Shown here one piece after another: positions 36,449 to 61,369 of a DNA stretch of 64,000 nt; the first letter of the stretch is position 1; every line of letters starts with the position of its first letter. Under the pieces are notes generated by a model. It saw only the letters and a program-made list of their open reading frames with translations, had not been told where the DNA came from and ran no database searches. Location: contig NZ_KB898472.1 of NCBI RefSeq assembly GCF_000377645.1, positions 124,001 through 188,000 of the forward strand, given 5' to 3'. The stretch comes from Thiomonas sp. FB-6 (GTDB lineage: Bacteria; Pseudomonadota; Gammaproteobacteria; Burkholderiales; Burkholderiaceae_C). The translations under genes and the position numbers were made by a program.

Positions 36449-36835
36449 ATGGCGACTTCCCACGCAGCCGGCGGCAGCGCCGCGACCTCGACGTCGCGGC
36501 CCAGCGTCATCCAGCTCGCGATCAAGGAGAAGCCGGCCCTGTACGCGGCCTACATTCCCTATTTCCCGGACGGGGGAATCTTCATTCCCACGCCTCGCGA
36601 ACACAAGCTGGGCGACGACGTCTACCTGCTGCTGACGGTGATGGACAACCCGCAGCGTTTTCCGATCGCCGGCAAGGTGGCGTGGATCACTCCGGCGAAC
36701 GCCGCGGGCAACCGCACGCAGGGCATCGGGGTGCAGTTTCCCGCGGACGAGAAGGCCAAGCAGCTGCGGCGCCTGATCGAGGAAATCCTCGGCCCCGCGG
36801 CCGAGGCGAACAACCGCCCCACCCATACGCTGTGA
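36449..36835 (+). CDS. pilZ: PilZ-domain protein
   Basis: 128 residues, start 1 nt past the holB stop (ATG follows TGAC). The PilZ fold is seen in YAAYIPYFPDGGIFIPTPRE, LGDDVYLLLTVMD and GIGVQFPADEK. It is the type IV pilus PilZ type placed after holB, which lacks the N-terminal RxxxR of c-di-GMP receptors; here it likewise lacks a clear RxxxR. It acts with PilB/FimX in pilus assembly in characterised species. Confidence 0.88.
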   Translation: MATSHAAGGSAATSTSRPSVIQLAIKEKPALYAAYIPYFPDGGIFIPTPREHKLGDDVYLLLTVMDNPQRFPIAGKVAWITPANAAGNRTQGIGVQFPADEKAKQLRRLIEEILGPAAEANNRPTHTL

Positions 36836-36915
36836 GCCGCGCGCGCCCAGGGCGCGCGCTCTGCCCGGCGGCGCGGCTCGCGCGGCCGCGCCATGCAGCC
36901 AATCTGCTTCGCGAC

Positions 36916-38419: not shown

Positions 38420-38481
38420 GGCCCAGGACCTGAGGGTCCGGGCGGAGCCCGGCCCCTGGGGAGCCTGAAACGGCGCATATT

Positions 38482-38539
38482 TGCATTATGTTAAATGCAG
38501 CTGGCTTGCGTACATTCGCTGCTTCGTTAGAATGTTCGC
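38482..38539 (+). promoter_or_regulatory. Promoter/operator region of ArsR-rhodanese gene copy 1
   Basis: TGCATT-N6-AATGCA (38482-38499) is an AT-rich inverted repeat. Downstream, TTGCGT (38506-38511), a 16-nt spacer and TAGAAT (38528-38533) form a candidate promoter; ACATTC-N12-GAATGT (38512-38535) is a second inverted repeat overlapping it. The -10 box ends 6 nt before the ATG, leaving no space for a Shine-Dalgarno. A 27-nt block (38513-38539) recurs with two changes before copy 2 (60281-60307). Confidence 0.6.
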
Positions 38540-39208
38540 ATGACATCCCGAGCCCTCAAGAATCAGCTCTACGCCCAGGTCGCGCGCGTCGGCGCCGCCC
38601 TGTCCAGCCCCAAGCGCCTGGAGTTGCTGGAACTGCTGGCGCAGGGAGAAAAATCGGTCGAGGCGCTGGCGCAGGCCGCCGACATCGACGTCAAGCTGGC
38701 CAGCGCCCACCTGCGTGTGCTGCGCGAGGCGCAGTTGGTCCATGCGCGGCGTGAGGGCAAGCACCGCATCCACCGGCTCAGCGCCTCCGACGTATCGGAC
38801 TTGTGGGTGAGCCTGCGGGAACTGGCCCAGGCCCATCTGGCCGAACTGCAACTCGCCATGGCCGGCCTGGCGGCCGAGCCCGGAAGCCTGAGGCCCGAGA
38901 GCGCCCGCTCGCTGCTCGACAAGGTGCGCGCCGGAGACGTCGTGTTGCTCGACGTTCGCCCCGAGGCCGAGTTCCGCACGGCCCACCTCCCCGGGGCGCG
39001 CTCGGTCCCGCTGGACGAACTGGAAGCGCGCATTCGCGAACTGCCGAGCGACAAGGAGATCGTCGCGTACTGCCGCGGACCGTTCTGCCTGATGTCGGAC
39101 GCGGCGGTGACGCTGATGCGGCATCACGGGCTGCGGGCGCGCAAGTGCGCCGACGGCGTGCCCGAATGGCGTGCCGCAGGGCTGCCCCTGGAACTCGAGA
39201 CCCCCTGA
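38540..39208 (+). CDS. ArsR-type regulator fused to a rhodanese domain, copy 1
   Basis: 222 residues. Winged HTH at residues 15-95 (SSPKRLELLELLAQGEKSVE, LASAHLRVLREAQLVHARR) joined to a rhodanese domain (DVVLLDVRPEAEFRTAHLPG) with active loop YCRGPFCLMSD. The HTH half has no cysteine, so metal or persulfide sensing through HTH thiols, as in SqrR/BigR, is not possible; the rhodanese Cys pair is the likely sensor (inference). About 80 percent identical to the protein at 60308-60976. It is followed after 13 nt by a broken persulfide dioxygenase gene. Confidence 0.88.
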   Translation: MTSRALKNQLYAQVARVGAALSSPKRLELLELLAQGEKSVEALAQAADIDVKLASAHLRVLREAQLVHARREGKHRIHRLSASDVSDLWVSLRELAQAHLAELQLAMAGLAAEPGSLRPESARSLLDKVRAGDVVLLDVRPEAEFRTAHLPGARSVPLDELEARIRELPSDKEIVAYCRGPFCLMSDAAVTLMRHHGLRARKCADGVPEWRAAGLPLELETP

Positions 39209-39251
39209 TCGAGGCGACACCATGTTCTTCAAGCAACTCCCCACACGCGAT

Positions 39252-39340
39252 GCCAGCCTGTCCTACCTGTTCGGCTGCGCCGGCCTCGGCAAGGCCGTCG
39301 CCGTCGACGTGGTCGCCGGCGACGAGGACTGGTTCGTCGA
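39252..39340 (+). repeat. 89-nt segment identical to 61400-61488
   Basis: Bases 39252-39340 are identical to 61400-61488, both inside the persulfide dioxygenase genes. The 30 nt before and the 57 nt after differ at multiple sites (six synonymous changes in the first 30 nt; GAACATGCGGAC versus GAGCAGGCGCGG after). Such a mosaic suggests recombination or conversion between the two copies. Confidence 0.9.
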
Positions 39341-39398
39341 ACATGCGGACCAGGCCGGGGCGCGGATCACCCATGTGATCGACACCCACGTCCACGCA

Positions 39399-39411
39399 GT
39401 TGTCCGACAAC
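39399..39411. repeat. Palindrome at the transposon left tip
   Basis: GTTGTC-C-GACAAC (39399-39411) is a perfect 6-bp palindrome around one base, immediately at the junction with the interrupted gene. The tip TGTC (39401-39404) resembles the TGT terminus of Tn7-like elements. Confidence 0.7.
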
Positions 39412-39452
39412 AATCCCCTCCGTGAGACGTGAATTCGGCGACAACATTTCCC
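39405..39452. repeat. Two direct repeats, candidate transposase binding sites
   Basis: CGACAACAATCCCC (39405-39418) and CGACAACATTTCCC (39439-39452) are direct copies 34 bp apart in the first 55 bp of the element. Arrays of about 20-bp TnsB sites at the ends are a hallmark of Tn7-like elements; these are the likely left-end sites. Confidence 0.6.
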
Positions 39453-39526: not shown

Positions 39527-42154
39527 TCAACGCCCAGCAGCGCCATTTGTAGCTTCTCTCACGGGCTCGACCGGTGCCCACAGTGATTCGCATCTGGCCC
39601 AGCGATGGGCCAGATTGCGGGCCCGGTTGGAGACATCTGTCAAGCTTAAAACGGCTGCACCCTTGCGGCCGCCGAGCAGGATTTGCTCATGCAACGAGAA
39701 TGCCTTCTTGAGCGCTCGCGCCGATCGATGTGCAAGGCGCGCGGCGATTGCGTGATGCCCTGCTGCTTCTGCATGCGCGGCTGCGTCAGTCATAAGCGCG
39801 CGAATGTATCGAGTGGGCGGAGCAAGGTCGATTGGCAGGAGCGGCTGCGATAACAGCAAGTGCAAATCCATGCCGCGATGGGAAAGCAGCCATGTGCGCA
39901 ACGTGCGCGCGAGAGGCGGCGGTGCAGCGACTGGGTACACGCCGTCATCGGTCTTCCCGCGGAGAATCCAAACACGCCAATCGTCATCGTTTGTGGCGGG
40001 CCCGACACTGGAAAACGTCAGTTTTGAGATCTGTTCCCAACTCAGGCTGGCGTAATACATCAACTCCACGAGGAGTCGAATGGGGAGGCCGGTACCGTTG
40101 CGCTCGAAATCATCCAAGGCGCGACGAATCCACTGCCACTCATCGATCTCAAGGGGTTCTGACTGGGAGATCTGTCGATGGTGGTATGTCGTGGGAACAT
40201 CCGAGATACCGTCCCTCTCGAAATTTTGCCTGCTGGCTTGCACCCGAAGCTCGGCGTAGCGCTGCTCGGCAAGCCAGTGCAGCAGAGCCTTGACGCAGGC
40301 CATCATGAAGACGCACGTCGACGGGCTCGGCGGCTGCGTGAACGGGCGCCACCGTTGTGTGTCCCGAGAGGCACGGGGCCCGATCCAACGATCGACTGGC
40401 GTGGGATGGGCCAGAAACCTTGCGAATTCAGCGAAATCTTCTCGATCCAGGGATGACAGAGCTTTGCCCTTTTCAATGCAACACCAATTGAGCAAGCGTT
40501 CGCCTGCCAACCGATACAAGGTTGCAGTCGATGCCGCAACTCCGCTGGCGAGAATCCACGCCTGGACGGCGTCGCGATCATTGGTGGCGGTGATGCGACA
40601 GGGTTCGTCGCGGACGCGGTATCGGCCTTCGCTGCCATCAAGATTTGCGGGAAGCACGAGGCGCTCCAAGGGCATCACATGACACGGTAAGCGACGAGAC
40701 GGGGAATGCGCGTCGTCCTCAGCGTGCAGCAGTTCCCCGCCGTGATCAACATGCACGACGAGGCCGGCGTCGCCGCGCACCGGGGCGACGAAGAGAAATG
40801 TTCCTTCCGCCCTCGTTCCATTCAGCATGAGATGGGTCAACGACATCGGCCAGGGAAAGAGCTCTGCGCTCATACGGTGTTTCCACAAGTTGAGTCGCGC
40901 AAACTCCCCCGTGGATCGCGCGATCTTGGGAACATCCGTCCGTTCGACCGTGGACGCCGCCAACCACTGCTGCGCAGTCCATAGGTCCTCGTGCAGGCAC
41001 TCCAGCGCGAAGCGCGCCCAAAGACCGTGCGAGACCTCACGGACAACCGGCCAATGCGCCATAGGCGGACGAAGCCTCAGTGGGTTCGCCCATGGCGCAC
41101 CGACTGACTCCTGTCCACCGCGAAAGCCTTCCTCGAAGCGCTGCCGCCAAAGCAGGAAGCCGTGCAGCGAGCTATTGCGTAACGTGGGCGGCGGAATCAG
41201 TGCCTGAGCCGAGCCTTCATGCGCGAAATCACGCATGTTGATTGCGCGCTGCGCGGTGTCGATCGCTAGGGATCTTCGGAAATGGCGACGCATACTTTTG
41301 TAGACAGCGCGCCGCGCTCTGGATACGGGGTCATCCAACGTAAGTAGCTTCGGCTGAGGACTCGGGCACAGAGCATCTCGATACACCTGGAGCGAGAGTG
41401 CCGCCTGGGTTTGAATGCTTGACTCCAGGGGCACGATCTGACGCAGGACCGAGAAGACGCTGCAGCGCCGCTCGCGGCCCACGTTGCCGTGCGGATCGAG
41501 TTCCCAGGCGCCGACGTCGGGCCACTGCAACGGAGCGCATTGGATCGCGCGCAACCACGCGATCAAGGGCTGAAGGGCCTGAACACCACGTGGCGCCTGC
41601 CATGTGCGTTCCCAGCGTGCCGTATCAGCGTTGCATGCAAGTGGGCCCCCGCACGCGTGGCAATGAAACGGTCGATCGAACCCTTCGACGGTCACTGCGT
41701 AGGCCGCTGTCGGCGCGGCGCAATGCGGGCAGACCTCCAGCAGCGGCTGCCCATCATGGATCGGGCAGACCCGAAGTGCGTCAATCTGATAGACCGCACT
41801 TTGAAATCCGCCCCTGAGACACACAGGGCAATACCGCAGGTGCGCATCCGATGCGATGCTGGAGGCCCAAACTCCGCAGAGATGCTCAAGCGTTCGCCTG
41901 GCGATCTCAGTGGTCACTGGGCTGCGCAGCGGGGTCGCTCGCAACCAGGTGTCCGACAGAAGGCTGCGCCCGTGCCAGGGACGCCCATGGTGGTGCAGCA
42001 GCGATCGGCCGAATAGCATCTGACAGAGATCTCGGGCGGGAAGTGCGTTCAGCGTCGCAACCTTGGCCAAGTGCGTGAATGGTCCTTCGTACGCGGAACT
42101 CCACGGCTTGGCCGAGATCAGGCCGTCTTGCAAGCAGGAGAGCTTCTCGTGCAT
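39527..42154 (-). CDS. TniQ-family protein fused to a tyrosine-recombinase-like domain
   Basis: 875 residues from ATG 42154, 4 nt after the ATPase stop. Residues 1-180 are TniQ with zinc-finger pairs CPVC (109-112), CPIH (130-133), CPHC (142-145) and CHAC (165-168). From about 525 there is a phage-integrase core-binding fold (DAVQAWILASGVAASTATLY, LDREDFAEFARFLAHP), then a catalytic-like domain to about 855. The integrase residues look lost: SWEQISKL (705-712) replaces the R-containing motif, SARALKKAFSLH replaces HxLRH, and no nucleophilic Tyr is seen. TniQ proteins choose targets in Tn7-like transposition; the extra domain probably binds DNA. The fusion is unlike TnsD or Tn5053 TniQ. Confidence 0.8.
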   Translation of the reverse strand: MHEKLSCLQDGLISAKPWSSAYEGPFTHLAKVATLNALPARDLCQMLFGRSLLHHHGRPWHGRSLLSDTWLRATPLRSPVTTEIARRTLEHLCGVWASSIASDAHLRYCPVCLRGGFQSAVYQIDALRVCPIHDGQPLLEVCPHCAAPTAAYAVTVEGFDRPFHCHACGGPLACNADTARWERTWQAPRGVQALQPLIAWLRAIQCAPLQWPDVGAWELDPHGNVGRERRCSVFSVLRQIVPLESSIQTQAALSLQVYRDALCPSPQPKLLTLDDPVSRARRAVYKSMRRHFRRSLAIDTAQRAINMRDFAHEGSAQALIPPPTLRNSSLHGFLLWRQRFEEGFRGGQESVGAPWANPLRLRPPMAHWPVVREVSHGLWARFALECLHEDLWTAQQWLAASTVERTDVPKIARSTGEFARLNLWKHRMSAELFPWPMSLTHLMLNGTRAEGTFLFVAPVRGDAGLVVHVDHGGELLHAEDDAHSPSRRLPCHVMPLERLVLPANLDGSEGRYRVRDEPCRITATNDRDAVQAWILASGVAASTATLYRLAGERLLNWCCIEKGKALSSLDREDFAEFARFLAHPTPVDRWIGPRASRDTQRWRPFTQPPSPSTCVFMMACVKALLHWLAEQRYAELRVQASRQNFERDGISDVPTTYHHRQISQSEPLEIDEWQWIRRALDDFERNGTGLPIRLLVELMYYASLSWEQISKLTFSSVGPATNDDDWRVWILRGKTDDGVYPVAAPPPLARTLRTWLLSHRGMDLHLLLSQPLLPIDLAPPTRYIRALMTDAAAHAEAAGHHAIAARLAHRSARALKKAFSLHEQILLGGRKGAAVLSLTDVSNRARNLAHRWARCESLWAPVEPVREATNGAAGR

Positions 42155-42158
42155 CGCG

Positions 42159-43247
42159 CTAGACCAAGCTCGCTTCGTAGCCGCTGTGCTCCACGGCGAG
42201 ATCCCAGGCGTCTTGCGTCCCGACAAAGCCCAGTCCGTCCATCGGTGTTTGCGAGAAGAAGAAATTGCGGATCGCGCCCGTGATCCAGCTCATTCCGATA
42301 TTGTTAGGCGTGCGCCCACAGCGTGCGGCGACCCGCGAGATGGCATTCCAGAATCTGGGGCCTTCTTCTGCCAGACGCCAACCACGGCCCCAAGCCTGGG
42401 GAAGAAAGAATGCGCTGTAGCAGATTCCGCTGCCTTGCGGGAATTCATGCTGCTTCGCTTCGTCATATGCCTGAAGACAGTGCGTCAGGTCATCGCGGTT
42501 GCGCATTCCGCGGAATTCGCACGGGGTCAACAGGAAGCGACCTATCAGATCCGTACGGCCACGTGCGAGCAGGCGGCTGCGGATGTGGTGCATTTCCGGG
42601 TGCCCGAACATCACGGTGACCATATCGACTCCCTGACGCTGCAGATCGTTGCTCAGATCGCGCAGCACCTGGAGCTCGCTTTCTCCCCAGTTCTGTCCCT
42701 CATCGACGAGGAGCAAGTACCGATTGCTGGAGCGTTGGGCGGCATGCGCGCGCAGGAGGTTCAAGACGCGCGTACGCCGATCGCTGGTCGTGCCCGTGCG
42801 TGCGCCACCGTGGTTGTAGTCGGTGAGGATGTCGGTGTAGAACACTTTCTCGGAGGGCTTGTCGTGGCCCTTCGCATTCACGCGGCCGACGGGCAGTCCC
42901 GGGAAAGTCTGTTCCAGCGTTTCCGCGATCTTGACAAGCGTGGTGGTTTTGCCCAAGCGAAACTCCCCGATCAGGCAGGTCCCCGGATCATGATGAACAA
43001 TGGCGCGCGTGACAACGTCGTAGGCCTCCCGCACGGGCCTTGTCGCGATCATCGCGGTGTTGCGGACCACCGGATGATCCTCATACAGCCTCGCGCGGTC
43101 CAGTTCGGGAACGGGATCGGGTCGGCTTGGGGGGGGGCCAAGGGAGCGCGGCAGGGTGGCGTCACTTGGGCTTGCTCCCTGCTCGATCGCGCTGACAGGA
43201 TTTGCGGCGGCGGGCTGTGTGCGCGTTGGATCAGCTTTGGAGCGCAT
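42159..43247 (-). CDS. AAA ATPase, TnsC/TniB-like transposition regulator
   Basis: 362 residues. Walker A GEFRLGKTTT (residues 94-103), Walker B YLLLVDEGQNWGESEL (178-193), then MVTVMFGHPEM sensor and an arginine-rich RFLLTPCEFRGMRNRDD. It should link the TniQ target selector to the DDE transposase. A G9 homopolymer (43129-43137) encodes Gly-Pro-Pro-Pro near residue 37, so slippage would frameshift the ATPase early. Gene spacing of 4-23 nt to both neighbours indicates one operon. Confidence 0.85.
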   Translation of the reverse strand: MRSKADPTRTQPAAANPVSAIEQGASPSDATLPRSLGPPPSRPDPVPELDRARLYEDHPVVRNTAMIATRPVREAYDVVTRAIVHHDPGTCLIGEFRLGKTTTLVKIAETLEQTFPGLPVGRVNAKGHDKPSEKVFYTDILTDYNHGGARTGTTSDRRTRVLNLLRAHAAQRSSNRYLLLVDEGQNWGESELQVLRDLSNDLQRQGVDMVTVMFGHPEMHHIRSRLLARGRTDLIGRFLLTPCEFRGMRNRDDLTHCLQAYDEAKQHEFPQGSGICYSAFFLPQAWGRGWRLAEEGPRFWNAISRVAARCGRTPNNIGMSWITGAIRNFFFSQTPMDGLGFVGTQDAWDLAVEHSGYEASLV

Positions 43248-43270: not shown

Positions 43271-45223
43271 TTACGCCCAAGGTGGCGGTGGGATGTGCCC
43301 GGGCAATAATGGCCGCAGTGGCGCGACCGTTCCCGCGCCATTCGCTGCAAGCGACACATGAGGGATCGGAGCTCCCGAGACTCGAGCCGCATTGGCAAGT
43401 TGTGTCGCGGTCGGGCTCACGGCCGGGTGTGGTCCACGCACTTCCAGAAGAGTTTTTTTGGCAAGGTAGTCCAGATAGGACAAGACGAAATCGTCGGCCT
43501 GCGCGTCAATCGCCCCGTTGCGCACCAAGGCGTTGATCTGCTTGCGCATCGCCCGCGAGTGCGCGGTCGATGCCCACGCCTTGTCCAGGGGAACGAGTTC
43601 GCCCAGCGCGTCACCCGTGGGAGAGAACGCGAGTACCCTGCGACAGTCTGCATCGTAGATGTGTGTGACGAGCGTCGAACCCACCCAGTCGAAGCGCGTG
43701 CAAAGGACGGAATTGGTGTAGCGAACCCGGTCGATCTGGATGTACGGGCGGACAACGCGGCCGCGATCGCAGCGGCCGGCGATGTACCTACGCTCCACGC
43801 TCCAGCCCAGGCGGGGCGTGTTGACCGTGATCGGTACGGACAGACGCGGCAGGAATCCACTTTGTGACTGGAGGTGGTTTTGAAGCACCATCAGCGGCGT
43901 CTGTCCGCCGAGCGCACTATGCGGCGTAGCGTTGTAGTTGGCCAGCAGTACGTCGACGAGGTCCACCAACTCCTCCCAGCGGATGCTTCGTCGCATCGCC
44001 TGCGCAACGAACTCTCCGCGCAAGCGGTCCGCTGGGTGCGATCCTGTCGATGATGGCAGGCACTGGAACCCATGCTGCTCCAAGGTGCGAAAAAGTCGTT
44101 CGACGATCGGGTTGTGCCACCAGGCACCGACGGGGCCGAAGGAGAGCGCGCAGCCGAACGACCTGCGGACACCCTGCGTGATGCGCTCGGCCCAGTGCTG
44201 GCTGGCGTTGTCCAGCACAATGACCGCTGGGCGGCACGGAGGAAACCCGGGTATGGCCCCTACCGGAAATCCAGCGCCCGGCGCATAACCCGGCCCCGGG
44301 ATGGTGAGTTCACGAGGCCTCCATTCCCGAGTGCAAAAGACCAGGGCCTCCTCGACGTCAGCGGCAGAAATCTCCTTGGCGATGGAGACCGAATAGCCGA
44401 GAATCGCCCGAGCGCGCTTGTCAATTACTGCATCGATCCAAAGCCGCTCGATCGGGACGTCTTGCGGCCCGGCGGGGCCGGTAATCACGACCGTGCCCAC
44501 GCAGTGCAGTTTGTGGGCATCCATCGCGGTCACATCCAGAGGGGCGGCCGCGAACTCGAAAGTGCTCTTGCCCGATCCGAGCAAAAGCTCCGTGCCCGCC
44601 TGAGCGCCGTACCACGTGGACATCGATGGCGCATCGCGCATGATGAACGCGCGAGCGTAACGCTCAATGGAGCGTCGCCCCTCACTCTTCGAATTCAACG
44701 GATAGTCACGGTCGCTCAATCCGAAGGTTCGACAGGCTTTGACAAAGCGCGCGGCTACGCCGTGGAGACTGGGCCGGGCCGAAGCGACCGCGCCTTGCCC
44801 TCCACCCTTTCGCACGATGGAGTGGAGCAAATCGCGCAGCATCTCGTGGTCTGCGAGGAATTGCTCGAAGGCGCCCGCTCCGCCCTGGCTCGCTTGACCC
44901 TTGCCACTCGGAAGTTGTTGGCGACGGCTATAGCGGGTGACACGTTGATAGGCCACCAACGCCGGCCACCCAACCGGACTCCCGTCGGCGCGCAGCTGCA
45001 CGCAGCGATTGAGCTGGTCGATCAAGCACGGCGGCGAGCAGCCCGCCTCCCGACTGGCAGCGCCGAGCGCGCCCGTCTTCAGGTACAGCCGCATCCCTCG
45101 GGCGAATCGCTCAAATCGAGCCAGCGTCGGCTCGTCTTGTTGACTCAAGTCGGCAGCCGGCCATTGCTCCGGATCACGATAGTGCTCGGGCAATGTTCGG
45201 AAGGTATAGCGCGCAATGCTCAT
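43271..45223 (-). CDS. DDE transposase, TnsB/TniA-like
   Basis: 650 residues from ATG 45223. The RNase H-like catalytic core shows the acidic triad: Asp235 in VTAMDAHKLH, Asp338 in AVIVLDNASQHWAERI, Glu375 in NPIVERLFRTLE, followed by NYNATPHSALGGQTPLMVLQ. A Mu-type C-terminal beta-barrel region follows (RYIAGRCDRGRVVRPYIQID). N-terminal 200 residues should bind the end repeats. It joins 3' ends to target DNA. Start overlaps the TnsA-like stop by 4 nt. Confidence 0.9.
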   Translation of the reverse strand: MSIARYTFRTLPEHYRDPEQWPAADLSQQDEPTLARFERFARGMRLYLKTGALGAASREAGCSPPCLIDQLNRCVQLRADGSPVGWPALVAYQRVTRYSRRQQLPSGKGQASQGGAGAFEQFLADHEMLRDLLHSIVRKGGGQGAVASARPSLHGVAARFVKACRTFGLSDRDYPLNSKSEGRRSIERYARAFIMRDAPSMSTWYGAQAGTELLLGSGKSTFEFAAAPLDVTAMDAHKLHCVGTVVITGPAGPQDVPIERLWIDAVIDKRARAILGYSVSIAKEISAADVEEALVFCTREWRPRELTIPGPGYAPGAGFPVGAIPGFPPCRPAVIVLDNASQHWAERITQGVRRSFGCALSFGPVGAWWHNPIVERLFRTLEQHGFQCLPSSTGSHPADRLRGEFVAQAMRRSIRWEELVDLVDVLLANYNATPHSALGGQTPLMVLQNHLQSQSGFLPRLSVPITVNTPRLGWSVERRYIAGRCDRGRVVRPYIQIDRVRYTNSVLCTRFDWVGSTLVTHIYDADCRRVLAFSPTGDALGELVPLDKAWASTAHSRAMRKQINALVRNGAIDAQADDFVLSYLDYLAKKTLLEVRGPHPAVSPTATQLANAARVSGAPIPHVSLAANGAGTVAPLRPLLPGHIPPPPWA

Positions 45224-45987
45224 GGCCCGTGCCCCGGCAGGCAAAAGCGCGAAGCCACGTCCAAAGGCCGCACCTCTAGGTCGCTGGCGTAACGGCCGTG
45301 CTGGACGCCTTGGAATAAGGCGGCTGCGTACAACGCGTCCTCGCCGTGTTCACCTAGGGCCAGAACGTCTCCAAGCGTGATGCATGTGCGCCGTTTGAGC
45401 AGGGCTGCGACTTGCTTTGCATGGCTATGCAACGGCCATTCACGGGCCTGGGCCAACCACGGCAGGATCCGCAGCCAATTCAGAATGCGCTGGGGACAAG
45501 CGTATATCTCCTTCTCCGTCCACACTTCGTGCGTTGCCACCTCATGCGCGTCGCTACCGGTGATCTGGGCTAGAACCGGCAGCGTGGCACGAGCCGCAGC
45601 GTGGCTTGCGACCGCGTCGGAACTGGTGATCTCGCGCCAGACGATCCGTCCGCCTACGAGACGGATCTCGGCATCGACGATGGCTGCCACGGCTTGCCCC
45701 GCGATGGCCTCGATTCGCGTCCTCGGTGCGTAGTCGGCCGATTCAACGGTCGGATCGGATTCTGCGAGCAGGAAGTGTCCAAACTGCAGGTCACCGCGCA
45801 GCACGAAATCCGCCCGAGCCTTGGGGCTGTAGACGACCCACAGGCTGCTGCGTGCATGGCCGCGCGCGCCCAAGGCGTTCGCGAATTCGGATCTCCGACG
45901 CGTACCGAGGCGCACCGCGGATGGCCGTGCCGACACGCCCAGAGCGTTGCGGGCCGGCGCATCGCTCGCCTTGTTGTTCGCCGCCAT
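45220..45987 (-). CDS. TnsA-like protein with altered nuclease residues
   Basis: 255 residues from ATG 45987 (GAGGG upstream). The TnsA endonuclease core is recognisable: LQFGHFLLAESDPTVESADY (68-86), IVDAEIRL (103-110), GGRIVWREIT (112-121), then a C-terminal helical region with ITLGDVLALGEHG. Compared with the family Glu...Asp...Glu-x-Lys pattern, I read Gln68 for the first Glu and Thr121 for the Lys, with Asp105 kept. If right, 5'-strand cleavage is lost. It is upstream of and overlapping TnsB, the Tn7 order. Family assignment is from core shape and context, not a search. Confidence 0.65.
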   Translation of the reverse strand: MAANNKASDAPARNALGVSARPSAVRLGTRRRSEFANALGARGHARSSLWVVYSPKARADFVLRGDLQFGHFLLAESDPTVESADYAPRTRIEAIAGQAVAAIVDAEIRLVGGRIVWREITSSDAVASHAAARATLPVLAQITGSDAHEVATHEVWTEKEIYACPQRILNWLRILPWLAQAREWPLHSHAKQVAALLKRRTCITLGDVLALGEHGEDALYAAALFQGVQHGRYASDLEVRPLDVASRFCLPGHGP

Positions 45988-46606
45988 GCTGTAGCCCTCG
46001 CTGCGAAGGAGCGCCCCTCGATCTGTCACGGGGCGCTGGCTCGGCAATGGCTACCCACGCGCGAGCGGCTTCTCCTCGAGACAGATCAGACTTGTGGTGG
46101 TCATATTCCGTTGCGCGCGTGACGTCAAGCATTTCCATACCGGTGTCATGGCTATCGTTCCTTCCGCGAGAGGCGGTCGATCGCCCAGCTGCGTCTGTTG
46201 TGCTCGGTTGGGCACGTTCAGCACAGCCCGACTTTTCAGTCCGCGCATTCAGCGAGTTCTCGCACTCGAACCCGGCGGAGCTCACGCGACCGCTAGCCCT
46301 ACCGTAGATTGGCGACCCGGTGCACCCGATGGCTCCAGGATGCTGACATAGTCCACGTCGTCATCACACAGTTCGACCTGCATGGCCACCCGCGTCAGCC
46401 CGCCGTGCAGACTCTCGGGTCTCGGCAACACGGCATGGTCGCCAAGGACTTGGAAGACTTTCAGGTGGCTCGAGGCACCGCTTGCGGGCCCACCCGGGGG
46501 CGCGCGTCCTCGCGATCGGCATGATCGACTCTTGCATCGGCAGGACCGCGTCTATTTCCGAATAGCGTGAGCAGGGCACCACAATCGTGAGCCGTGGCGG
46601 AATTCT
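45988..46606. other. 619-bp stretch without a recognisable gene
   Basis: Lies between the 5' end of the TnsA-like gene and the 3' end of the TnpT-like gene, both leftward. Short open frames on both strands lack ribosome sites and family motifs. The promoter of the transposition operon should be in 45988-46150. I looked here for the inverted copy of the left-end repeats and did not find one. Confidence 0.5.
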
Positions 46607-47605
46607 TCAACGCGTGGGCCCGGGCGGTGATGCGATTGCCGAGCGTTTGCGTGTAACCGGAGTGGCTTTTCGAGTTCCCGACTTGGCAAGATTCGCAAGG
46701 CGATCCAGCGACGCTTGAAGCGTGGCGATCTGCGCTCGTGCAGCCACCGCGTCCGCTGCGCTGGCCTCACCGGCGGCGCGCAGGTCCGCGATGCGCTCGC
46801 GCTCCAGCGCCAATTCGGCAGCAGCTGCCGCATGAAGGGTGGCCTGCGCCTGTTCCCGGTCACGCGCGGCATTCAGCAACGCCTGCGCTCGATCGCCCGC
46901 GGCCAACGCTGCTTGCCGCTCGGTACTCAGGGTCCGTTGAAGCGCATCCACCTGGCGTTCAGACTTGGCCCTGGCGGTACGCTCGCGCTCGAGTTCAAGC
47001 GCCACTCGTCGATCGGCTGCGTCCGCGCGCTGCAGCGCCGCTTCAAGCTGCCGCCTGAGCTCGGCCATCTCGGCGCTCGTCTGGGTCTCGTGCTCGCGCA
47101 GGGTGCTGGTCGCAGTGGCTAGAGCCGCGCGGACGCCCTCGAGGCGGGCGCGCTCTGCGGCAAGGTCCTGTTGGCCCCTATCGAGTTGGCGTCCTTGCTC
47201 CGCCAACAGTTGTTCAAGCCGCGTCGCGTTCGCATGGGCCTCGCGCGTGGCCGTTTGTGCTTGCTCGGCCCGCTCTTTCTCCGATTCGAAGTTGGCGGCC
47301 GCCGTCGCGAGACCCTCGCGCAGTCGCGCATCGAAGTCGGCGCGGGTATGCGCCAGCGCCGTCTCCCAGAAGTGCTGCGCGGCCTGAAGGATGGGCTCTG
47401 GCACGTCGGGCGGCGCGGCAAAGGCACCGGGATCCTGCAGTCGTCGGCCCAGCCCTTTGAACCAGGCGTCCAGCATGGGACTGACTGTGTTGGGCGAGCC
47501 GCGTCCGATCTTTTGGCGTACCCGCTCAATGGTCGGGCGCTCGCCCGCGAGCAGCAGCGCGTCACAGGCAGCGAAGACGTCGTGATCGGTGATGCCGCGT
47601 GCCAT
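46607..47605 (-). CDS. tnpT: TnpT-like/KfrA N-terminal DNA-binding coiled-coil protein
   Basis: 332 residues from ATG 47605 with AAGGAGG upstream. Residues 1-75 carry the KfrA-type N-terminal helix-turn-helix (ITDHDVFAACDALLLAGERP, VRQKIGRGSPNTVSPMLDAW). Residues about 110-315 form a long coiled coil rich in Glu, Arg, Ala and Gln. A basic tail ends the protein. Divergent pairing with a tyrosine recombinase across about 120 bp is the tnpT-tnpS arrangement of Tn4651-type transposons, where TnpT aids cointegrate resolution; function is inferred from this. Confidence 0.75.
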   Translation of the reverse strand: MARGITDHDVFAACDALLLAGERPTIERVRQKIGRGSPNTVSPMLDAWFKGLGRRLQDPGAFAAPPDVPEPILQAAQHFWETALAHTRADFDARLREGLATAAANFESEKERAEQAQTATREAHANATRLEQLLAEQGRQLDRGQQDLAAERARLEGVRAALATATSTLREHETQTSAEMAELRRQLEAALQRADAADRRVALELERERTARAKSERQVDALQRTLSTERQAALAAGDRAQALLNAARDREQAQATLHAAAAAELALERERIADLRAAGEASAADAVAARAQIATLQASLDRLANLAKSGTRKATPVTRKRSAIASPPGPTR

Positions 47606-47653
47606 GGTTCGACCTCCTTGATTTGCGCCCTGCTTCCTGCGATATTCAGTCAC

Positions 47654-47716
47654 GATAATGGATAGTTATCGGGCCCTATGCTCAAGTTGCGTTAGACATC
47701 TTACGTTGCTTGTAAG
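47654..47716. promoter_or_regulatory. Candidate resolution site between tnpT and tnpS
   Basis: Two inverted repeats of the same geometry: GATAA-N7-TTATC (47654-47670) and CTTAC-N7-GTAAG (47700-47716), centred 46 bp apart, in the 122-bp divergent gap. The 5-7-5 layout fits a tyrosine recombinase core site with a second accessory or core site. Divergent promoters must also be here. Position matches the rst site of Tn4651. Confidence 0.55.
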
Positions 47717-47727
47717 TTTTCAAACTC

Positions 47728-48855
47728 ATGGCCAACCGTCGCATGATCACTCCCGTGGCGTTGCCGCCGACCGGGATCGGAGCGCTCGATCCCGGCGTGC
47801 TCGCGCCGTTCACCTCCGCAGCTGTCGAGGCGTTGCTCGCCGAGGGCGAATCCGCCCACACCGTGCGCAGCTACCAGGCGGCGCTGCGCTACTGGGCGGC
47901 CTGGTACTGGCTGCGCTATCGCCAGCCCATCGCCCTGCCCGTTCCCGTCGCGGCCGTGCAGCAGTTCCTGGTGGATCACCTGGAGCGCAAGACGCCGGCA
48001 GGTCTTGCCTGTGAAATGCCGCCCGTGCTCGACCAGGCGCTCGTCGAAGGCGGCTTCAAGGCCAAGCCAGGCGCGCCCGCGCTGGCCACCGTCCTGCACC
48101 GCCTGAGCGTGCTGTCCAAGGCCCATCAGCTCCAGGGAGGATCCAATCCGATTCAGCACGCCCATGTTCGCGAACTCGTCGCCAAGGCCCGCCGGGCCTA
48201 CGCCAAACGAGGCGTGAAGCCGGACAAGAAGGCGGCGATCACCCTGGAGCCCCTGCAGGCGATGCTGGCCACCTGCGATGATTCGCTGCGCGGCGTGCGC
48301 GACCGCGCCCTGCTCCTCTTCGCCTGGGCCAGCGGCGGGCGCCGCCGCTCGGAGGTCACGGACGCAACGTTCGACAACACGCGCAAGGTGGGGCCGCGCG
48401 CATATTCCTACACGTTGTTGCGCTCCAAGACGAACCAGGCCGGGGATCTACGACCCGACAGCGAAAAGCCCATTCTCGACGACGCCGCCGACGCGCTGGA
48501 AGCGTGGATTGGGCGCAGTGGGCTGACCCAGGGGGCGATTTTTCGGCGCATCCGCCGTGGCGACACAATCGGAGAGCCCCTTGCGCCCGCTGCCGTGCGC
48601 GACATTGTCAAGGCGCGCGCCGCGCTCGCTGGCTTGCCCGACACCTTCGCGGCGCACTCTCTGCGCTCGGGCTTCGTGACCGAGGCTGCGCGGCAAAACG
48701 TGCCCCTGGCTGAAACCATGGCGCTGACTGGGCATACCTCGGCTGCCACGCTTATCGGATACTTTCGGGCTGCGGAGTCGGCGCGCAGCGCGGGGGCACG
48801 GATGTTCACATCCGCCGGTGAAATTGGGCTGACACCAGATTCGCACGACACCTGA
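47728..48855 (+). CDS. tnpS: Tyrosine recombinase, TnpS-like cointegrate resolvase
   Basis: 375 residues. SAM-like core-binding domain (SAHTVRSYQAALRYWAAWYW), then a catalytic domain with a full set of active residues: Arg in GGRRRSE (about 206), Lys234 in LRSKTNQ, His310-x-x-Arg313 in AHSLRSGF, His336 in LTGHTS and nucleophile Tyr345 in TLIGYFRA. Unlike the integrase-like part of the TniQ fusion, this one should be active. ATG 47728; an in-frame ATG at 47743 is an alternative. Context with TnpT argues for resolution, not integration. Confidence 0.82.
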   Translation: MANRRMITPVALPPTGIGALDPGVLAPFTSAAVEALLAEGESAHTVRSYQAALRYWAAWYWLRYRQPIALPVPVAAVQQFLVDHLERKTPAGLACEMPPVLDQALVEGGFKAKPGAPALATVLHRLSVLSKAHQLQGGSNPIQHAHVRELVAKARRAYAKRGVKPDKKAAITLEPLQAMLATCDDSLRGVRDRALLLFAWASGGRRRSEVTDATFDNTRKVGPRAYSYTLLRSKTNQAGDLRPDSEKPILDDAADALEAWIGRSGLTQGAIFRRIRRGDTIGEPLAPAAVRDIVKARAALAGLPDTFAAHSLRSGFVTEAARQNVPLAETMALTGHTSAATLIGYFRAAESARSAGARMFTSAGEIGLTPDSHDT

Positions 48856-50222: not shown

Positions 50223-53200
50223 TCAGCTCCAGTTTGGCTTCGACGAAATATCGGGCGAGGCTTGCCCGCCTCCCAGGGCCAGGCGCCGCTTCTGCCACAG
50301 GGCGTAGACCGCCGGGATCAGGAGCAAGGCCAGCAAGGCGGCCGTCAGCATGCCACCCACCATCGGTGCGGCGATACGTTTCATCACGTCGGCGCCGGCG
50401 CCCTGGCTGAACATGATGGGCAGCAGGCCTCCGACCACCATGGTCAAGGTCATCGCCATCGGGCGCAAGCGCAGCAGCGTTCCCTCGACCACGGCCTGCT
50501 TCAGGTCATCCCAGGTGTTGAGCGTGTCATGGATCCTGCGCCGCGCCAGCGCGGCGTCCAGGTACAGCAGCATGACCACGCCGAACTCGGAGGCCACTCC
50601 GGCGGTCGCGATGAAGCCCACGCCCACCGCGACCGACAGCTTGTATCCCAACCAGTCGACGTACCAGACCCCCCCCACCAAGGACAGCGGCAAGGTCAAC
50701 AGGATGATGGCGACTTCGGTGAGATTCTTGAAATTGAAATACAGCAGCAGCGCGATCAGGCCGATCACGCTCGGCACCAGGATCTTCAGGCGTTGCACGG
50801 CCTGCTGCAAGGCCTGGTACTGTCCGACCCAGTCCATCGTGAATCCAGGCGGCATGCGCACCCCTTGCGCCAAGGCCGATTTGGCCTTGGCCACATAACC
50901 GCTGATGCTGGTACCGGGCGTCAGGTCGATGTAGACCCATGCATTCAACTGACTGTTGTCGCTGGTCAGCATAGGCGGCCCACCCTCGATGCGCAGCGTG
51001 GCGACCTGCGCCAGGGGAATCTGCGCCCCCTGAGGCGTCGCCACACGGCTGGCCATCAGCGCGGACAGAGACTGCCGCAGATCACGCGGATAGCGCAGGC
51101 TGATCGGAAAACGCTCCAGGCCGTTTACTGCGGTGCTCAACATCCGGCCGCCGATGGCGGTCTCGACCAGCCGATTCACGTCGGCCACCGAAAGCCCATA
51201 GCGCGCAGCCGCGCGCCGGTCGGTATCGACCACGATGTAGCGTCCGCCCGTGGCTCGGGCGGCGTACGCGTTCTGGGTTCCGGGAACCTTCTGAAGCACC
51301 GCCTGGATTTCCTGGCCGAGTCGGTTGAGCGTGGCGAGATCCCCCCCCGTGACCTTGATGCCCAGCGGTGTCTGCAACCCCGTGGTCAGCATGTCCACCT
51401 GGCCTTTGATCGGCTGGGTCCAGGTGTTGGACACGCCGGGTATGCGCAGGGCCCGGTTCATCTCCTCGATCAGCATCGAGGTCGTCATCCCCGCAGGCCA
51501 CTTGCTGCGGTCCTCGAGGTTGACCACCGACATGAACATCGAGATCGGCGTCGGATCGGTGGCCGTCTGGGCCCGCCCCGCCTTGCCGAACACGCTGCGC
51601 ACTTCCGGGAAGCTCTTGATGATGCGATCCGTCTGCTGCAGGATGGCGGCCGATTGTCCGATGGAAATCGACGGATCCTGCGCCACCGGCATGTACAGCA
51701 GGGTGCCTTCATTCAACGGAGGCATGAACTCCGAGCCGAGATGTTTCCAGGGGAAATACAGGCTTGCCACGGCGACCAGGCTCAGGCCGATGACGAGCCA
51801 CGGCGCCCGCAGCACGCCATGGATCAGCGGGCGATACAGCCAGGTGAGCAGTCGGTTCAGGGGGTTCGCGCCCTCCGGACGGATGTTTCCGCGGATGAAC
51901 CAAGCCATCAGCAGCGGCACCAGGGTGATCGAGAGGATGGCCGCAGCGGCCATGGCGTAGGTCTTGGTGAACGCCAGCGGACTGAACAGCTTGCCCTGCT
52001 CGCCGCCGAGGGCGAATACCGGAAGGAACGACACCGCGATGATGAGCAAGGAGAAGAACAACGCGGGGCCTACCTCCGAGGCCGCTACCCGCGCCTTCAT
52101 CCAGGGATCGGCACCGGGTTCGTGCTCCATGTGCTTGTGCATGTTCTCGATCATCACGATCGCGGCATCCGTCATGGCACCGATGGCGATGGCGATGCCT
52201 CCCAGCGACATGATGTTGGCCGGGATGCCTTGTGCCCACATCACGACAAAGGCTGCCAGGATGCCCAACGGAAGCGAAACGATCGCGACCAGAGCGGAGC
52301 GCGCTCGCATGAGGAAGAGCAGGGACACCAGCGCGACGATCAGCGACTCTTCCAGCAGTTTCTCGGTCAGCGTGTGGATGGCACGCTGGATCAGCGGGGC
52401 CTGGCTGTAGGTGGTGACGATCTTCACCCCCGGCGGCAACGAAGCCTGCAAGGTCCGGATCTTGTCCTCCACCCTGCGGATGATGGCATCGGCGTTGGAG
52501 CCCTGGTTCATCATCACGATGCCGCCGACGACTGCGCCTTGGCCGTCGAGGTCGGCGGCGCTGTTGGGTAACTCGGGGGCGAACTCGACGCGCGCGACGT
52601 CCTTGAGCGTCACGGGCACGCCATCGCGCGCGGCCAGCGGCGCGTTCTCCAGATCGTCCAGCGAGTGTACGTAACCGGTCGTGCGCACCATGTAGCTGGC
52701 TTCCCCCAGATCGACGACCGATCCGCTGGTCTCGCCGTTGGCAGCGCGTATCGCATCCTCGACCTGCGGCAAGGTCAGGCCGTAGGCCAGCAGGGCCTGC
52801 GGGTCGACCACTACCCGGAATTCCTTGACCATACCTCCGACCGTTGCGACCTCGGCGACCCCCGGAATCCCCTGCAACTGGTACTTGAGGAACCAGTTCT
52901 GCAAGGTCGTGAGTTGGCTCAGGTCGCGTGTACCGCCCGTATCGGTCAAGGCGTACATGTAGATCCAGTCCACCCCGGAACTGTCGGGCCCGAGCGCCGG
53001 AGTGACGCCTGGTGGAAGCCTCGATTGCACCTGGCTGAGGTACTGCAGCACCAGGTTGCGTGCCTGGTAGATGTTGGTGCCATCCTGGAAGATGACGTAG
53101 ACGAAGGAGTCGCCGAACATCGAATAGCCGCGCACCGCACGCGCGCCGGGAACCGACTGCAGGGTCGTCTCCAGGGGATAGGTCACCTGGTCCTGCACCA

Positions 53201-53378
53201 CTTGCGGCGCCTGTCCGGGGTACGAGGTCTTGATGATGACTTGCGTGGGGGAGATGTCGGGAATGGCCTCCAAGGGCGTGTTGCGGACCGCCAGCATGCC
53301 TGCGGCCAGCAGCATCAGTGCGCCCATCACCGTAAGGGCGCGGTTCTCGAAGCACCACTCCATGAGGCGCCTAATCAT
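50223..53378 (-). CDS. cusA: Cu(I)/Ag(I) efflux RND permease CusA
   Basis: 1051 residues (E. coli CusA 1047). The N-terminus IRRLMEWCFENRALTVMGAL is typical of heavy-metal RND pumps, and TM4 reads IAIAIGAMTDAAIVMIEN, the monovalent-cation (Cus) version, not the DFGIIVDG of CzcA. Periplasmic Met-containing stretches and LLLYFNFKNLTEVAIILLTL complete the 12-helix layout. It drives proton-coupled export of Cu(I)/Ag(I) with CusB and CusC. Start overlaps cusB by 8 nt. Confidence 0.94.
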   Translation of the reverse strand: MIRRLMEWCFENRALTVMGALMLLAAGMLAVRNTPLEAIPDISPTQVIIKTSYPGQAPQVVQDQVTYPLETTLQSVPGARAVRGYSMFGDSFVYVIFQDGTNIYQARNLVLQYLSQVQSRLPPGVTPALGPDSSGVDWIYMYALTDTGGTRDLSQLTTLQNWFLKYQLQGIPGVAEVATVGGMVKEFRVVVDPQALLAYGLTLPQVEDAIRAANGETSGSVVDLGEASYMVRTTGYVHSLDDLENAPLAARDGVPVTLKDVARVEFAPELPNSAADLDGQGAVVGGIVMMNQGSNADAIIRRVEDKIRTLQASLPPGVKIVTTYSQAPLIQRAIHTLTEKLLEESLIVALVSLLFLMRARSALVAIVSLPLGILAAFVVMWAQGIPANIMSLGGIAIAIGAMTDAAIVMIENMHKHMEHEPGADPWMKARVAASEVGPALFFSLLIIAVSFLPVFALGGEQGKLFSPLAFTKTYAMAAAAILSITLVPLLMAWFIRGNIRPEGANPLNRLLTWLYRPLIHGVLRAPWLVIGLSLVAVASLYFPWKHLGSEFMPPLNEGTLLYMPVAQDPSISIGQSAAILQQTDRIIKSFPEVRSVFGKAGRAQTATDPTPISMFMSVVNLEDRSKWPAGMTTSMLIEEMNRALRIPGVSNTWTQPIKGQVDMLTTGLQTPLGIKVTGGDLATLNRLGQEIQAVLQKVPGTQNAYAARATGGRYIVVDTDRRAAARYGLSVADVNRLVETAIGGRMLSTAVNGLERFPISLRYPRDLRQSLSALMASRVATPQGAQIPLAQVATLRIEGGPPMLTSDNSQLNAWVYIDLTPGTSISGYVAKAKSALAQGVRMPPGFTMDWVGQYQALQQAVQRLKILVPSVIGLIALLLYFNFKNLTEVAIILLTLPLSLVGGVWYVDWLGYKLSVAVGVGFIATAGVASEFGVVMLLYLDAALARRRIHDTLNTWDDLKQAVVEGTLLRLRPMAMTLTMVVGGLLPIMFSQGAGADVMKRIAAPMVGGMLTAALLALLLIPAVYALWQKRRLALGGGQASPDISSKPNWS

Positions 53379-54912
53379 GAGAGGCCCCGGTCGCAGTCAT
53401 GTGCATGCCAGCCATCGAGCCCGCACCTGCCGGGGCCAGAGAGGGCTGTGCCACGGCAGGGTCTTGTGCTCGCCCAGGTATCGGCGTGCCGGGCTTAGTG
53501 CCTCCCGGGGGCGCAGCGTCGAGGCTCGTGTTGCCGCCCAGCATGCGCGCTTTCACCGATTGAAATTGCGATTCGGAGTACAGCAAAAACTGAGCGCTTT
53601 CCACCACCCTGTCGCCCGCCCGCAAGCCCCTGGCGATGGCCACCCAGCCGTCCGCCTGCGGCCCCAGCGCGACCTGGACCGGAAGGAAATGGCCCTGCCC
53701 TTGCGCCAGCATCACGTAGTCGCCCTCTTGGGTGCGCAGTACAGCACTGCTCGGCACGGCTAGCGCCGACTGCGCATGCCCCAGCACGGTAGCGTCGGCA
53801 TACATGCCTGGACGCAGCTCGCCGTCGCTGTTGGCAAAGCTCAGGCGCGCGGTGACGGTACGCGTGCGCGGATCCAGGGTCGGGTAGAGAAAGCTCAGGC
53901 GGCCGCTCCAGGTCCTGCCGGGATAGGCCTGAAGCTCCAGGCGGACCGCGTCGCCGACCCGCACCCAGGGCAGCTGGTAGTCGTACAAGGCCACGTTGAC
54001 CCAGATGCGCTGCAGGTTGGCGATCTCGAACAGTTCGGCCTGCGGCGAGACATAGCCGCCCTGCCGAATGCGGAGCGCCGTTACCACGCCGCTCCGCGGA
54101 GCCAGCACGGGAATCTCGCGCAGGGGCTTGCCCGTGCGCTCCAGGGTCGTCAATGCCGCCCCGGGCATGCCCAGCAGGCGAAGTCTTTCCCGCGCCGCCG
54201 CCAGGATCTGCTCGCCGCCTTGCGTGCCTTGCCCCCTCAGCGCGATCAGGTCGTCTTGCTGGGCGCTGTACAGCTCGGGAGAGTAGATCTCGGCGAGCAC
54301 CTGACCGCGCCTGACGAGGTCCCCCTCCGCCCGAACCCGCAGGCGCACGACCCAACCCGCGAAGCGCGCGGTCACCGCATCGACCCGGTTCTGGTCCTGT
54401 GCCACGGTTCCCACCGTGTGCATGGCCTGCCCCATCGTTCGCATCTGCGCGGCGACCAGTCGCACTCCCAGGTTCTGCGCCTGGCGCGCATCGATACGCA
54501 GCCCGTCATCGTGCGCCCCGGAGGGCGCCTGGGCGTACACCGGGACGTAGTCCATGCCCATGTTGTCCTTCATGGGATGATCCGAATGAATCGCTGGATT
54601 CATGGGGCTCGCCCAATACAGCACCCTGCGCTGCGCGGGCGCGGGCGTGGCGGCACCGGCATAGACCGGAACGTAGTCCATCCCCATGTTGTCCTTCATC
54701 GGGTGATCCGAGTGAATGGACGAGTTCATGGGGCTGGCCCAATACAGGACGCGGCGCTCGGCGGGTGCCGACGCTGGGGACTTGTCCGCCGTGGCTACGA
54801 CAGCCGCTCGAGGCGCCTTGGGTGCCGGAGTAAGCCAGCGGGTGAGGCCTGCGCCGGCGCCCGCACCGGCAAGCAGCAGCCCCAACGCGAATCCAAGCGT
54901 TCGCCGCATCAT
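53371..54912 (-). CDS. cusB: Cus membrane-fusion protein CusB with two heavy-metal-binding domains
   Basis: 513 residues from ATG 54912. One N-terminal helix ([20 protein letters not shown]), then two tandem copies (residues 53-85 and 95-127) of a metal-binding unit with LYWASPMN, IHSDHPMKDNMGMDYVPVY. The adaptor follows: RFAGWVVRLRVRAEGDLVRRG lipoyl/barrel half, a helical hairpin and beta-barrel ending in SSAVLRTQEGDYVMLA. The C-terminal tail is His/Met-containing (SMAGMHMTATGASHD). E. coli CusB has no such duplicated unit. Confidence 0.92.
   Translation of the reverse strand: MMRRTLGFALGLLLAGAGAGAGLTRWLTPAPKAPRAAVVATADKSPASAPAERRVLYWASPMNSSIHSDHPMKDNMGMDYVPVYAGAATPAPAQRRVLYWASPMNPAIHSDHPMKDNMGMDYVPVYAQAPSGAHDDGLRIDARQAQNLGVRLVAAQMRTMGQAMHTVGTVAQDQNRVDAVTARFAGWVVRLRVRAEGDLVRRGQVLAEIYSPELYSAQQDDLIALRGQGTQGGEQILAAARERLRLLGMPGAALTTLERTGKPLREIPVLAPRSGVVTALRIRQGGYVSPQAELFEIANLQRIWVNVALYDYQLPWVRVGDAVRLELQAYPGRTWSGRLSFLYPTLDPRTRTVTARLSFANSDGELRPGMYADATVLGHAQSALAVPSSAVLRTQEGDYVMLAQGQGHFLPVQVALGPQADGWVAIARGLRAGDRVVESAQFLLYSESQFQSVKARMLGGNTSLDAAPPGGTKPGTPIPGRAQDPAVAQPSLAPAGAGSMAGMHMTATGASHD
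54532..54756 (-). repeat. Tandem duplication of the metal-binding unit in cusB
   Basis: Two 99-bp copies (54658-54756 and 54532-54630), repeating every 126 bp, encode near-identical RRVLYWASPMN...VYA units; only SS/PA differ in the core. Nucleotide sequences have drifted at many third positions, so the duplication is not recent. Confidence 0.85.
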
Positions 54913-56219: not shown

Positions 56220-56323
56220 GGGGATCCTCTTCGGCCAATGAGGCGTTGCGCTGCAAGCCATGCAGGCGCAACAGCATCCAGCATGGCGCCCGCGGGTACC
56301 GCGAGCGCCTACTGCCGAAAGGA

Positions 56324-56974: not shown

Positions 56975-57391
56975 TCAGGCCTCCACCTGTTGCTGCAGGC
57001 TGCCGATCAGCGGACAGGAGACCTTGCCCCGGCGTGTGTCGCACGCCTGGATCAGCGCTGCCAGCGCCGATTCCATGCGTTGCAAATCCCGCAGACGAGC
57101 ACGCACATCGGCGAGCCGATCCGAGGCCAGCGTGGCGGCTTCGCGGCAGTGCGTTCCATCGTCGAGCCGCAACAACTGCTCGACATCGTCCAGGCTGAAG
57201 CCCAAGCGCTGCGCCGCCTTGATGAAGCGAACGCGCGCCACGGCCGCGGGACCGTAGCGCCGGATTCCGCTGGCGGGTCGGCCCGGCGTGGGCAGCAAGC
57301 CCTTGAGCTGATAAAAGCGGATCGTTTCCACGTGAACCCCGGCAGCCTTGGCGAGTGCACCGATGCTGAGCCTTTCTAGCGGTTGTTCCAT
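56975..57391 (-). CDS. merR: Mercury-responsive regulator MerR
   Basis: 138 residues. MerR HTH ([40 protein letters not shown]), dimer helix and the three Hg(II) ligands at Cys82 (GTHCREA), Cys117 and Cys126 ([14 protein letters not shown]), at the same positions as Tn501 MerR. It represses and, with Hg(II), activates the divergent mer promoter. It reads toward the cus cluster, 249 bp away. Confidence 0.95.
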
Positions 57392-57396
57392 GGCGC

Positions 57397-57427
57397 TTGA
57401 CTCCGTAGTTGACTACGGGAATAAGGT
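57397..57427 (+). promoter_or_regulatory. mer promoter/operator
   Basis: TTGACT (57397-57402), a 19-bp spacer, TAAGGT (57422-57427). The dyad CTCCGTAG...CTACGGGA (57401-57420) fills the spacer. The over-long spacer and dyad are the classic MerR-controlled promoter, untwisted by MerR-Hg(II). Confidence 0.95.
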
Positions 57428-57479
57428 AGCACCTGTTGCACCTATGGCGCAGTGTCGTCCCGGCAAGGAGTCTTCACCC

Positions 57480-58055: not shown

Positions 58056-60087
<2,032 letters not shown>

Positions 60088-60976: not shown

Positions 60977-60991
60977 ACCCGGGAGACCAGC

Positions 60992-61342: not shown

Positions 61343-61369
61343 ACCATCCCACAGGGTCGAGTCCCCATC

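Follow-up and report, generated by a model that had tools for sequence, protein, structure and literature searches.

The Thiomonas sp. FB-6 DNA analysed here, a stretch of 64,000 nucleotides referred to as the window, carries a Tn7-like transposon whose tniQ gene is joined to a tyrosine recombinase (TR) sequence (tniQ-TR; Table 1). As the original prediction had it, with correct coordinates, a TniQ protein with zinc fingers and an integrase-like C-terminus are encoded in a single frame; the gene is on the minus strand. The genes for the AAA+ ATPase, the transposase and the TnsA-like protein lie upstream of tniQ-TR and all run in the same direction. The locus thus holds tnsB (assigned by homology, the Pfam match being weak), tnsC and tniQ together in one operon, as Tn7-like transposons require. 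The window TnsB has copies with 82% and 81% identity in the genomes G020 and G016, respectively, and is 26-30% identical to other Tn7-like TnsB proteins. In the TnsA-like protein, the usual lysine of the PD-(D/E)xK motif was not evident (VWREI), so that both cut-and-paste and replicative movement are conceivable.

Table 1. Features of the fused element and its surroundings in the window
Feature	Position	Strand	Basis and remarks
Chromosomal dif site	38469..38496	+	AACGGCGCATATTTGCATTATGTTAAAT; XerC arm, centre, XerD arm (right)
Metallo-beta-lactamase-fold gene, 5' fragment	39222..39397	+	named by eye; cut by the transposon end within the HxHxDH codons
tniQ-side transposon end	39398..39452	+	AGTTGT-CCGACAACAATCCCC; first base putative; compared with the G005, G020 and G019 ends
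tniQ-TR gene	39527..42154	-	ATG 42154, stop 39529-39527; coding 42154 to 39530, 875 aa
TR catalytic-like (CAT) domain, residues ~651-863	39566..40204	-	alignments, dN/dS
TR core-binding (CB) domain, residues ~490-650	40205..40687	-	alignments, profile, dN/dS
TniQ part, residues 1-485	40700..42154	-	Cys/His motifs ~105-174; PF06527 below cut-off; hhalign to the second element's TniQ
tnsC/tniB-like AAA+ ATPase	42159..43247	-	AAA_22 1.3e-12; TniB 8e-4, below cut-off
tnsB/tniA-like DDE transposase, 650 aa	43271..45223	-	weak rve_3 below cut-off; homologues
tnsA-like gene	45220..45987	-	position and motif by eye; without Pfam or PHROGs match
kfrA and TR region	46234..48806		sequence comparison; homologous to the interior of the second element (G022, next to the left end)
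KfrA-like gene	46607-47608		divergent from the neighbouring TR gene
Tyrosine recombinase with catalytic motifs	47728-48855		divergent from the KfrA-like gene

A second CGACAACA repeat lies 34 bp inside the tniQ-side end of the window, and the corresponding end in relatives reads AGTAAG-CCGACAACATTTCCC. The tnsA-side end of the fused element was found neither by an end-motif search of the window and contig nor in any copy. A 22-base end pattern run over 28 genomes did not find the tnsA-side end either; this pattern detects three genomes and misses the window's more divergent end. The metallo-beta-lactamase-fold gene cut by the tniQ-side end has an intact paralogue 22 kb off (61370-62101), and a search from the window to the right end of the contig did not recover the missing 3' half of the interrupted gene. 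The arsR-rhodanese and metallo-beta-lactamase-fold genes are duplicated (38510-39397 and 60278-61545; 80% and 90% identical), and the transposon end interrupts the first copy. The interval that separates the Tn7-like genes from the second arsR copy holds efflux and mercury-type genes, identified by eye from ORF translations: RND efflux genes of the copper/silver type, a regulator of the MerR type and a gene resembling mercuric reductase (50223-56261 and 56975-60087).

Within the TniQ part, Pfam TniQ (PF06527) aligned to residues 29-134 with an E-value of 1e-4 and 23.4 bits, under the 27-bit cut-off. The Cys/His-rich region is common to the TniQ of a second Tn7-like element, described below (E 9e-7), and hhalign of the two TniQ sequences gave 96% over columns 103-368.

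The TR domain occupies residues ~490-863 of the 875-aa protein, and several comparisons bore out the integrase-type assignment made in the original prediction. The PHROGs family 'integrase' matched residues 529-758 at 1e-8. A profile built from 12 unfused TR relatives scored the window domain at 185 bits (E 3.6e-58, in a set of only four sequences), and hhalign with the same profile gave 100% over 321 columns. Eleven members of the profile came from the 82 places listed for other genomes and one from the search of 60 relatives; L030 was omitted, its catalytic part being missing. Identity to many TRs was roughly 25-44%, over parts. Pfam (E<=1) and NCBIfam (E<=0.1) gave no match for the C-terminal half; among four TR relatives scanned, Phage_integrase was present in all and DUF3701 also in two. 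A PDB search with a profile of the three fused copies alone returned no chain at E<=1, and a mixed profile from alignment A1 matched XerD at 1.1e-21, a score that leans on its active members.

We examined the catalytic residues in alignment A1, in which nine relatives keep Arg-I, Lys-beta, HxxR, His-III and Tyr (9/9, read by eye). In the window domain, Arg-I is replaced by Ser, HxxR by RxxK and Tyr by Trp, and His-III is retained (A1, by eye), the His-III and Tyr columns being assigned from two agreeing MAFFT alignments only, as the G020 profile match stops at about domain residue 292, and that of hhalign at column 342, both before these motifs. Lys-beta is ambiguous: the window Lys precedes the aligned column by one residue, and that column has Thr in the window and Glu in G020. 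The G020 and G005 copies have the losses of the window plus His-III to Arg, and the G016 copy, cut by a contig end before the last motifs, has the first two. The absence of Arg, HxxR and Tyr had been predicted, and alignment indeed yielded no full R-K-H-R-H-Y set. The set R, K, HxxR, H/W and Y expected of an active TR is likewise incomplete in the fused domain, with His-III kept in the window only. By its sequence, the fused C-terminal half is a predicted inactivated tyrosine recombinase.

The fused protein is under purifying selection, strongest on the CB domain. Between the window and G020, whose proteins are 67% identical at a synonymous divergence of ~0.9 per site, dN/dS was 0.18 for residues 1-180, 0.34 for residues 180-490, 0.15 for CB and 0.33 for CAT, as estimated from this one sequence pair by a simple counting method. 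The TR half is open across ~390 codons in both the window and G020; the G016 and G005 copies are cut by contig ends.

A survey of 60 relatives (own genome counted) found homologues with the same architecture, a check suggested with the original prediction, in three others, G020, G016 and G005, all within the genus; the copies are nearly whole in G020 and G016 and cut by a contig end in G005. Elsewhere among 399 genomes of the order, only the TR part was found at E<=1e-10 among the best two candidates per genome, and none of 72,556 plasmid records covered 80% of the fused-protein query; these large searches scored the best two or three candidates per genome. The sole match in a genome_contigs search, L015, was rejected as a homologue, as its ORFs were without TniQ or TR (by eye). 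Over the parts common to G016, G005 and G020, the element is 98.6-100% identical, but the chromosomal flanks of G005 and G020 are only 68-76% identical, indicating separate insertions of one mobile element.

The chromosomal dif site lies on the tniQ side of the element. Its sequence has a single match in the own genome; of 28 genus genomes, 24 contain it once, and it is absent from the reversed control. The centre and XerD arm are identical to those of the published Dechloromonas dif (PMC2731167), used here for comparison, whereas the XerC arm differs. In the 227-kb contig that contains the window, cumulative GC skew reaches its maximum 6 kb from dif, and dif itself lies downstream of an ankyrin gene and a tatD-like gene, the latter named by eye. 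ARAGORN called a 98-base tRNA-Pro at 36790-36887, near the start of the tatD-like gene, which is probably spurious. A tRNA target was rejected, the nearest ARAGORN call ending 2.5 kb from the transposon end.

Comparison of the homologues' insertion sites, also suggested beforehand, placed most of them beside dif. The tniQ-side end of the fused element follows the XerD arm at +34 bp in G020, +46 bp in G019, +50 bp in G005 and +65 bp in G027 (the last read from 8 nt at a contig end), on the same side and in the same orientation. In the window copy it lies 901 bp from dif, inside the metallo-beta-lactamase-fold gene. Four of five mapped ends are therefore within 65 bp of dif (one on 8 nt), and all five are on the XerD side. 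The spread of spacings ruled out a fixed distance from dif. The stretches between dif and the transposon end are unrelated between species, or homologous yet interrupted at different bases, as in G019 and G027, where the interruption points in the homologous flank are 19 bp apart. These differences point to separate insertions. For the G005 junction, G016 carries the homologous uninterrupted sequence.

The second Tn7-like element, with a TnsB 28% identical to that of the fused element and a TniQ without a recombinase domain, sits +38, +41, +52 and +52 bp from dif in G023, G010, G022 and G025, respectively. It is flanked by 5-bp duplications, read by eye as TTGGC in G022, CTCCT in G010 and GCCGA in G023. 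Its right flanks differ (by eye: PaaI-like in G022, an RND 3' end in G010 and G015, a dehydrogenase in G023, a regulator in G005; for G015 the right flank only was seen, without dif or the left flank). This speaks against a far-side gene as target and leaves dif as the common neighbour. A 15-base pattern for the ends of this element gave mostly chance matches, with counts near the control. One and the same 5-bp sequence adjoins both the left end of the fused element and the right end of the second element in G005 (G005:C59 and G005:C63), an arrangement that could represent a tandem array at one position or a composite transposon. The second element of G022 (L080:5150-16866 and L022:8707-14390) is complete at ~56 kb, and its cargo includes mercury-type and sulfur-type genes (by eye). 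The kfrA/TR pair of the window also lies just inside the dif-side end of this G022 element, and kfrA occurs in G025, G010 and G016 as well.

A third Tn7-like element occurs in G613, a genome from another family. The last of its end-type repeats is 64 bp away from a dif-like site, on the XerD-arm side, and neither TR nor tniQ was seen on the dif side. Among four class-level tnsB relatives, G613 alone adjoins dif: in G587 a dif-like site is 16 kb away on the XerC side, and no dif-like site was present in the G797 and G705 stretches examined. Taken together, these positions suggest a group of Tn7-like transposons that hunt the chromosomal dif site and insert beside it in one orientation.

We also looked at the gene neighbourhoods of eight order-level tnsB loci, fetched from nine tnsB places listed outside the own genome (G193:C33 was left out). 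Three of the eight carry a TR of the window's subfamily beside tniQ: in G154 on the same strand, ~0.2 kb downstream (between open frames); in G304 convergent, with the open frames 6 bp apart; and in G193 convergent, 1.5 kb away. These unfused TRs keep their catalytic motifs. G133 and G343 carry a TR of the 47728-48855 kind 1.8 and 2.4 kb from tniQ, and the stretches of the remaining three contained neither kind. A dif-like site was absent from seven of the eight stretches (13-19 kb each), the exception being G133, where it lies 9 kb from tniQ on the XerD side. In L186 (G349:C4, 598-10115), a dif-like site has two TR genes of the same subfamily on its XerD side, at distances of 1 and 8 kb, and no tns gene was matched in the 15 kb examined there. 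Of two plasmid relatives of the TR that we inspected, one neighbours a Tn3-family transposase and the other a DUF4158 gene. In a tree, the fused domain joined the G154/G193-type TRs on a long stem (2.99 changes per column); the support of 94/85 falls slightly short of the threshold set by the tool. The simplest history would be that tniQ fused with a neighbouring TR gene and that catalysis was lost afterwards, the order being inferred.

Targeting by an inactive recombinase has a precedent. TnsF of Tn6022 is a catalytically dead TR that chooses the target with TniQ, as supported by experiment, and the same paper mentions one TniQ-TnsF fusion, SCZ64694 (Faure et al. 2023, PMC10293859). These reports contradict the original claim of a target-selection mode not described before. 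The proposed recruitment of an inactivated recombinase thus holds as far as an apparently dead TR joined to a TniQ selector under purifying selection is concerned, but not as a first case of dead-TR targeting. Both systems pair such a TR with TniQ in a Tn7-like transposon. TnsF is encoded by a gene of its own and combines zinc fingers with two CB domains and a partial CAT of 70 aa; its target is comM (PMC10293859). The TR described here belongs to another subfamily, is fused, aligns over one CB and most of CAT, and is associated with dif.

Tyrosine resolvases are described as common in Tn7-like groups without tnsA (PMC8649781; PMC11406308). These tnsR resolvases (Benler et al. 2021, PMC8649781) are a likely source of the fused domain, as TRs adjoin tniQ in G154, G304 and G193. 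As described, however, tnsR proteins carry catalytic motifs and are separate genes, unlike the fused TR of the window. Recombination sites are also known as targets. The Tn5053 family are res-site hunters, drawn to the res sites of serine resolvases (Minakhina 1999 as cited in PMC11406308). Like them, the fused element is a TniQ-type transposon that seems to be attracted to the site at which a resolution system recombines. It differs in that the putative target is chromosomal dif/XerCD and a recombinase domain lies within TniQ. The 'dif site hunters' IS1202 and ISAjo2 (Harmer 2023, PMC10132070) share with the dif-side Tn7-like elements a TnsB-like transposase, a 5-bp duplication and a single orientation beside dif. 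By that account, they have no further Tn7-type proteins and insert 5 bp from the XerC side (PMC10132070), whereas the spacing here is 34-65 bp on the XerD side. Our literature search, with most subscription journals outside its reach, returned no Tn7-like element at dif, and the only dif hunters were TnsB-like insertion sequences of the IS1202 family. The idea of dead-TR targeting is therefore known; the different recombinase, the covalent fusion, the retention of an inactive CAT and the different landing site set this case apart as a variant.

At a little under an even chance, we tentatively favour a Tn7-like transposon that hunts dif and whose selector touches dif or the XerCD-dif complex through its TR module, the link between TR and dif being inferred. 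A TR gene downstream of tniQ would have fused to it and then lost its catalytic residues, in that presumed order, leaving a docking module for DNA or protein. Together with TniQ, this module may recognise dif or the XerCD-dif complex, a role that we assign provisionally to the TR rather than to the TniQ part or a host factor alone. TniQ would then recruit TnsC and the transposase, which would place the tniQ-side end some tens of bp past the XerD arm. Of this scenario, the data show the fusion, the loss of the motifs, purifying selection, the unfused TRs beside tniQ in relatives and the dif-adjacent ends. By analogy, this suggests a protein that may combine TnsF-like reading by a dead TR with recombination-site hunting of the Tn5053/IS1202 type. 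We are more doubtful of the sharper version, a TniQ-borne dead Xer-like recombinase that finds dif by mimicking or docking on XerCD and represents a second independent recombinase-based targeting system after TnsF, with a new kind of target.

Several observations speak against a TR-based choice of dif. The second element reaches the same place with a TR-free TniQ; insertion beside dif therefore does not generally require the TR, which may refine rather than create target choice. The spacing from dif varies, the window copy is 901 bp off, and the tnsA-side end was seen in no copy. The 5-bp duplication of G005 is common to both elements and also explicable by a composite element, and most class- and order-level tnsB relatives show no adjacent dif. 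Instead, the TniQ part might determine the closeness to dif, or TnsC might do so by sensing XerCD, FtsK or terminus DNA, with the dead TR only stabilising the complex, bending DNA or adding a second target pathway. This is somewhat less probable still but a serious contender, as both the second element and G613 lie near dif, the latter likewise with no TR or tniQ seen on its dif side; on the other hand, constraint on the CB domain equals that on the TniQ core, and a TR gene recurs beside tniQ in relatives.

That recurrence could also reflect a former cointegrate resolvase, its dead domain now tethering TniQ to the resolution site that it once used or to those of related elements, with the closeness to dif secondary. 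The frequency of tyrosine resolvases in tnsA-less Tn7-like groups (PMC8649781; PMC11406308) and the plasmid relatives beside a Tn3-family transposase and a DUF4158 gene fit this explanation, which we nevertheless consider unlikely with four of five mapped ends so close to dif. The lost catalytic residues and long tree stem would suit a vestigial read-through fusion without function, which is very improbable given ~390 open codons in the window and G020 at a dN/dS of 0.15-0.33. Hardly credible is membership of the TnsF family in the form of a TniQ-TnsF fusion aimed at comM: the general idea is the same and one such fusion is mentioned (PMC10293859), but membership was ruled out by the sequence, the window domain having no detectable similarity to one TnsF (Tn6021, pAB3; BLAST E 3.4, hhalign 0.2-0.4%). 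In addition, the mapped ends of the fused element lie beside dif or in the metallo-beta-lactamase-fold gene.

If a TR-guided search for dif is correct, Tn7-like transposons have recruited TRs for targeting at least twice, from different subfamilies, along a plausible path from a recombinase gene beside tniQ through fusion to loss of catalysis. The insertion sites also point to dif as a landing site for whole Tn7-like transposons, with two distantly related elements in the genus and a third in another family. Because dif and XerCD occur in most bacteria, a selector that reads dif/XerCD could serve as a broad-range homing module.
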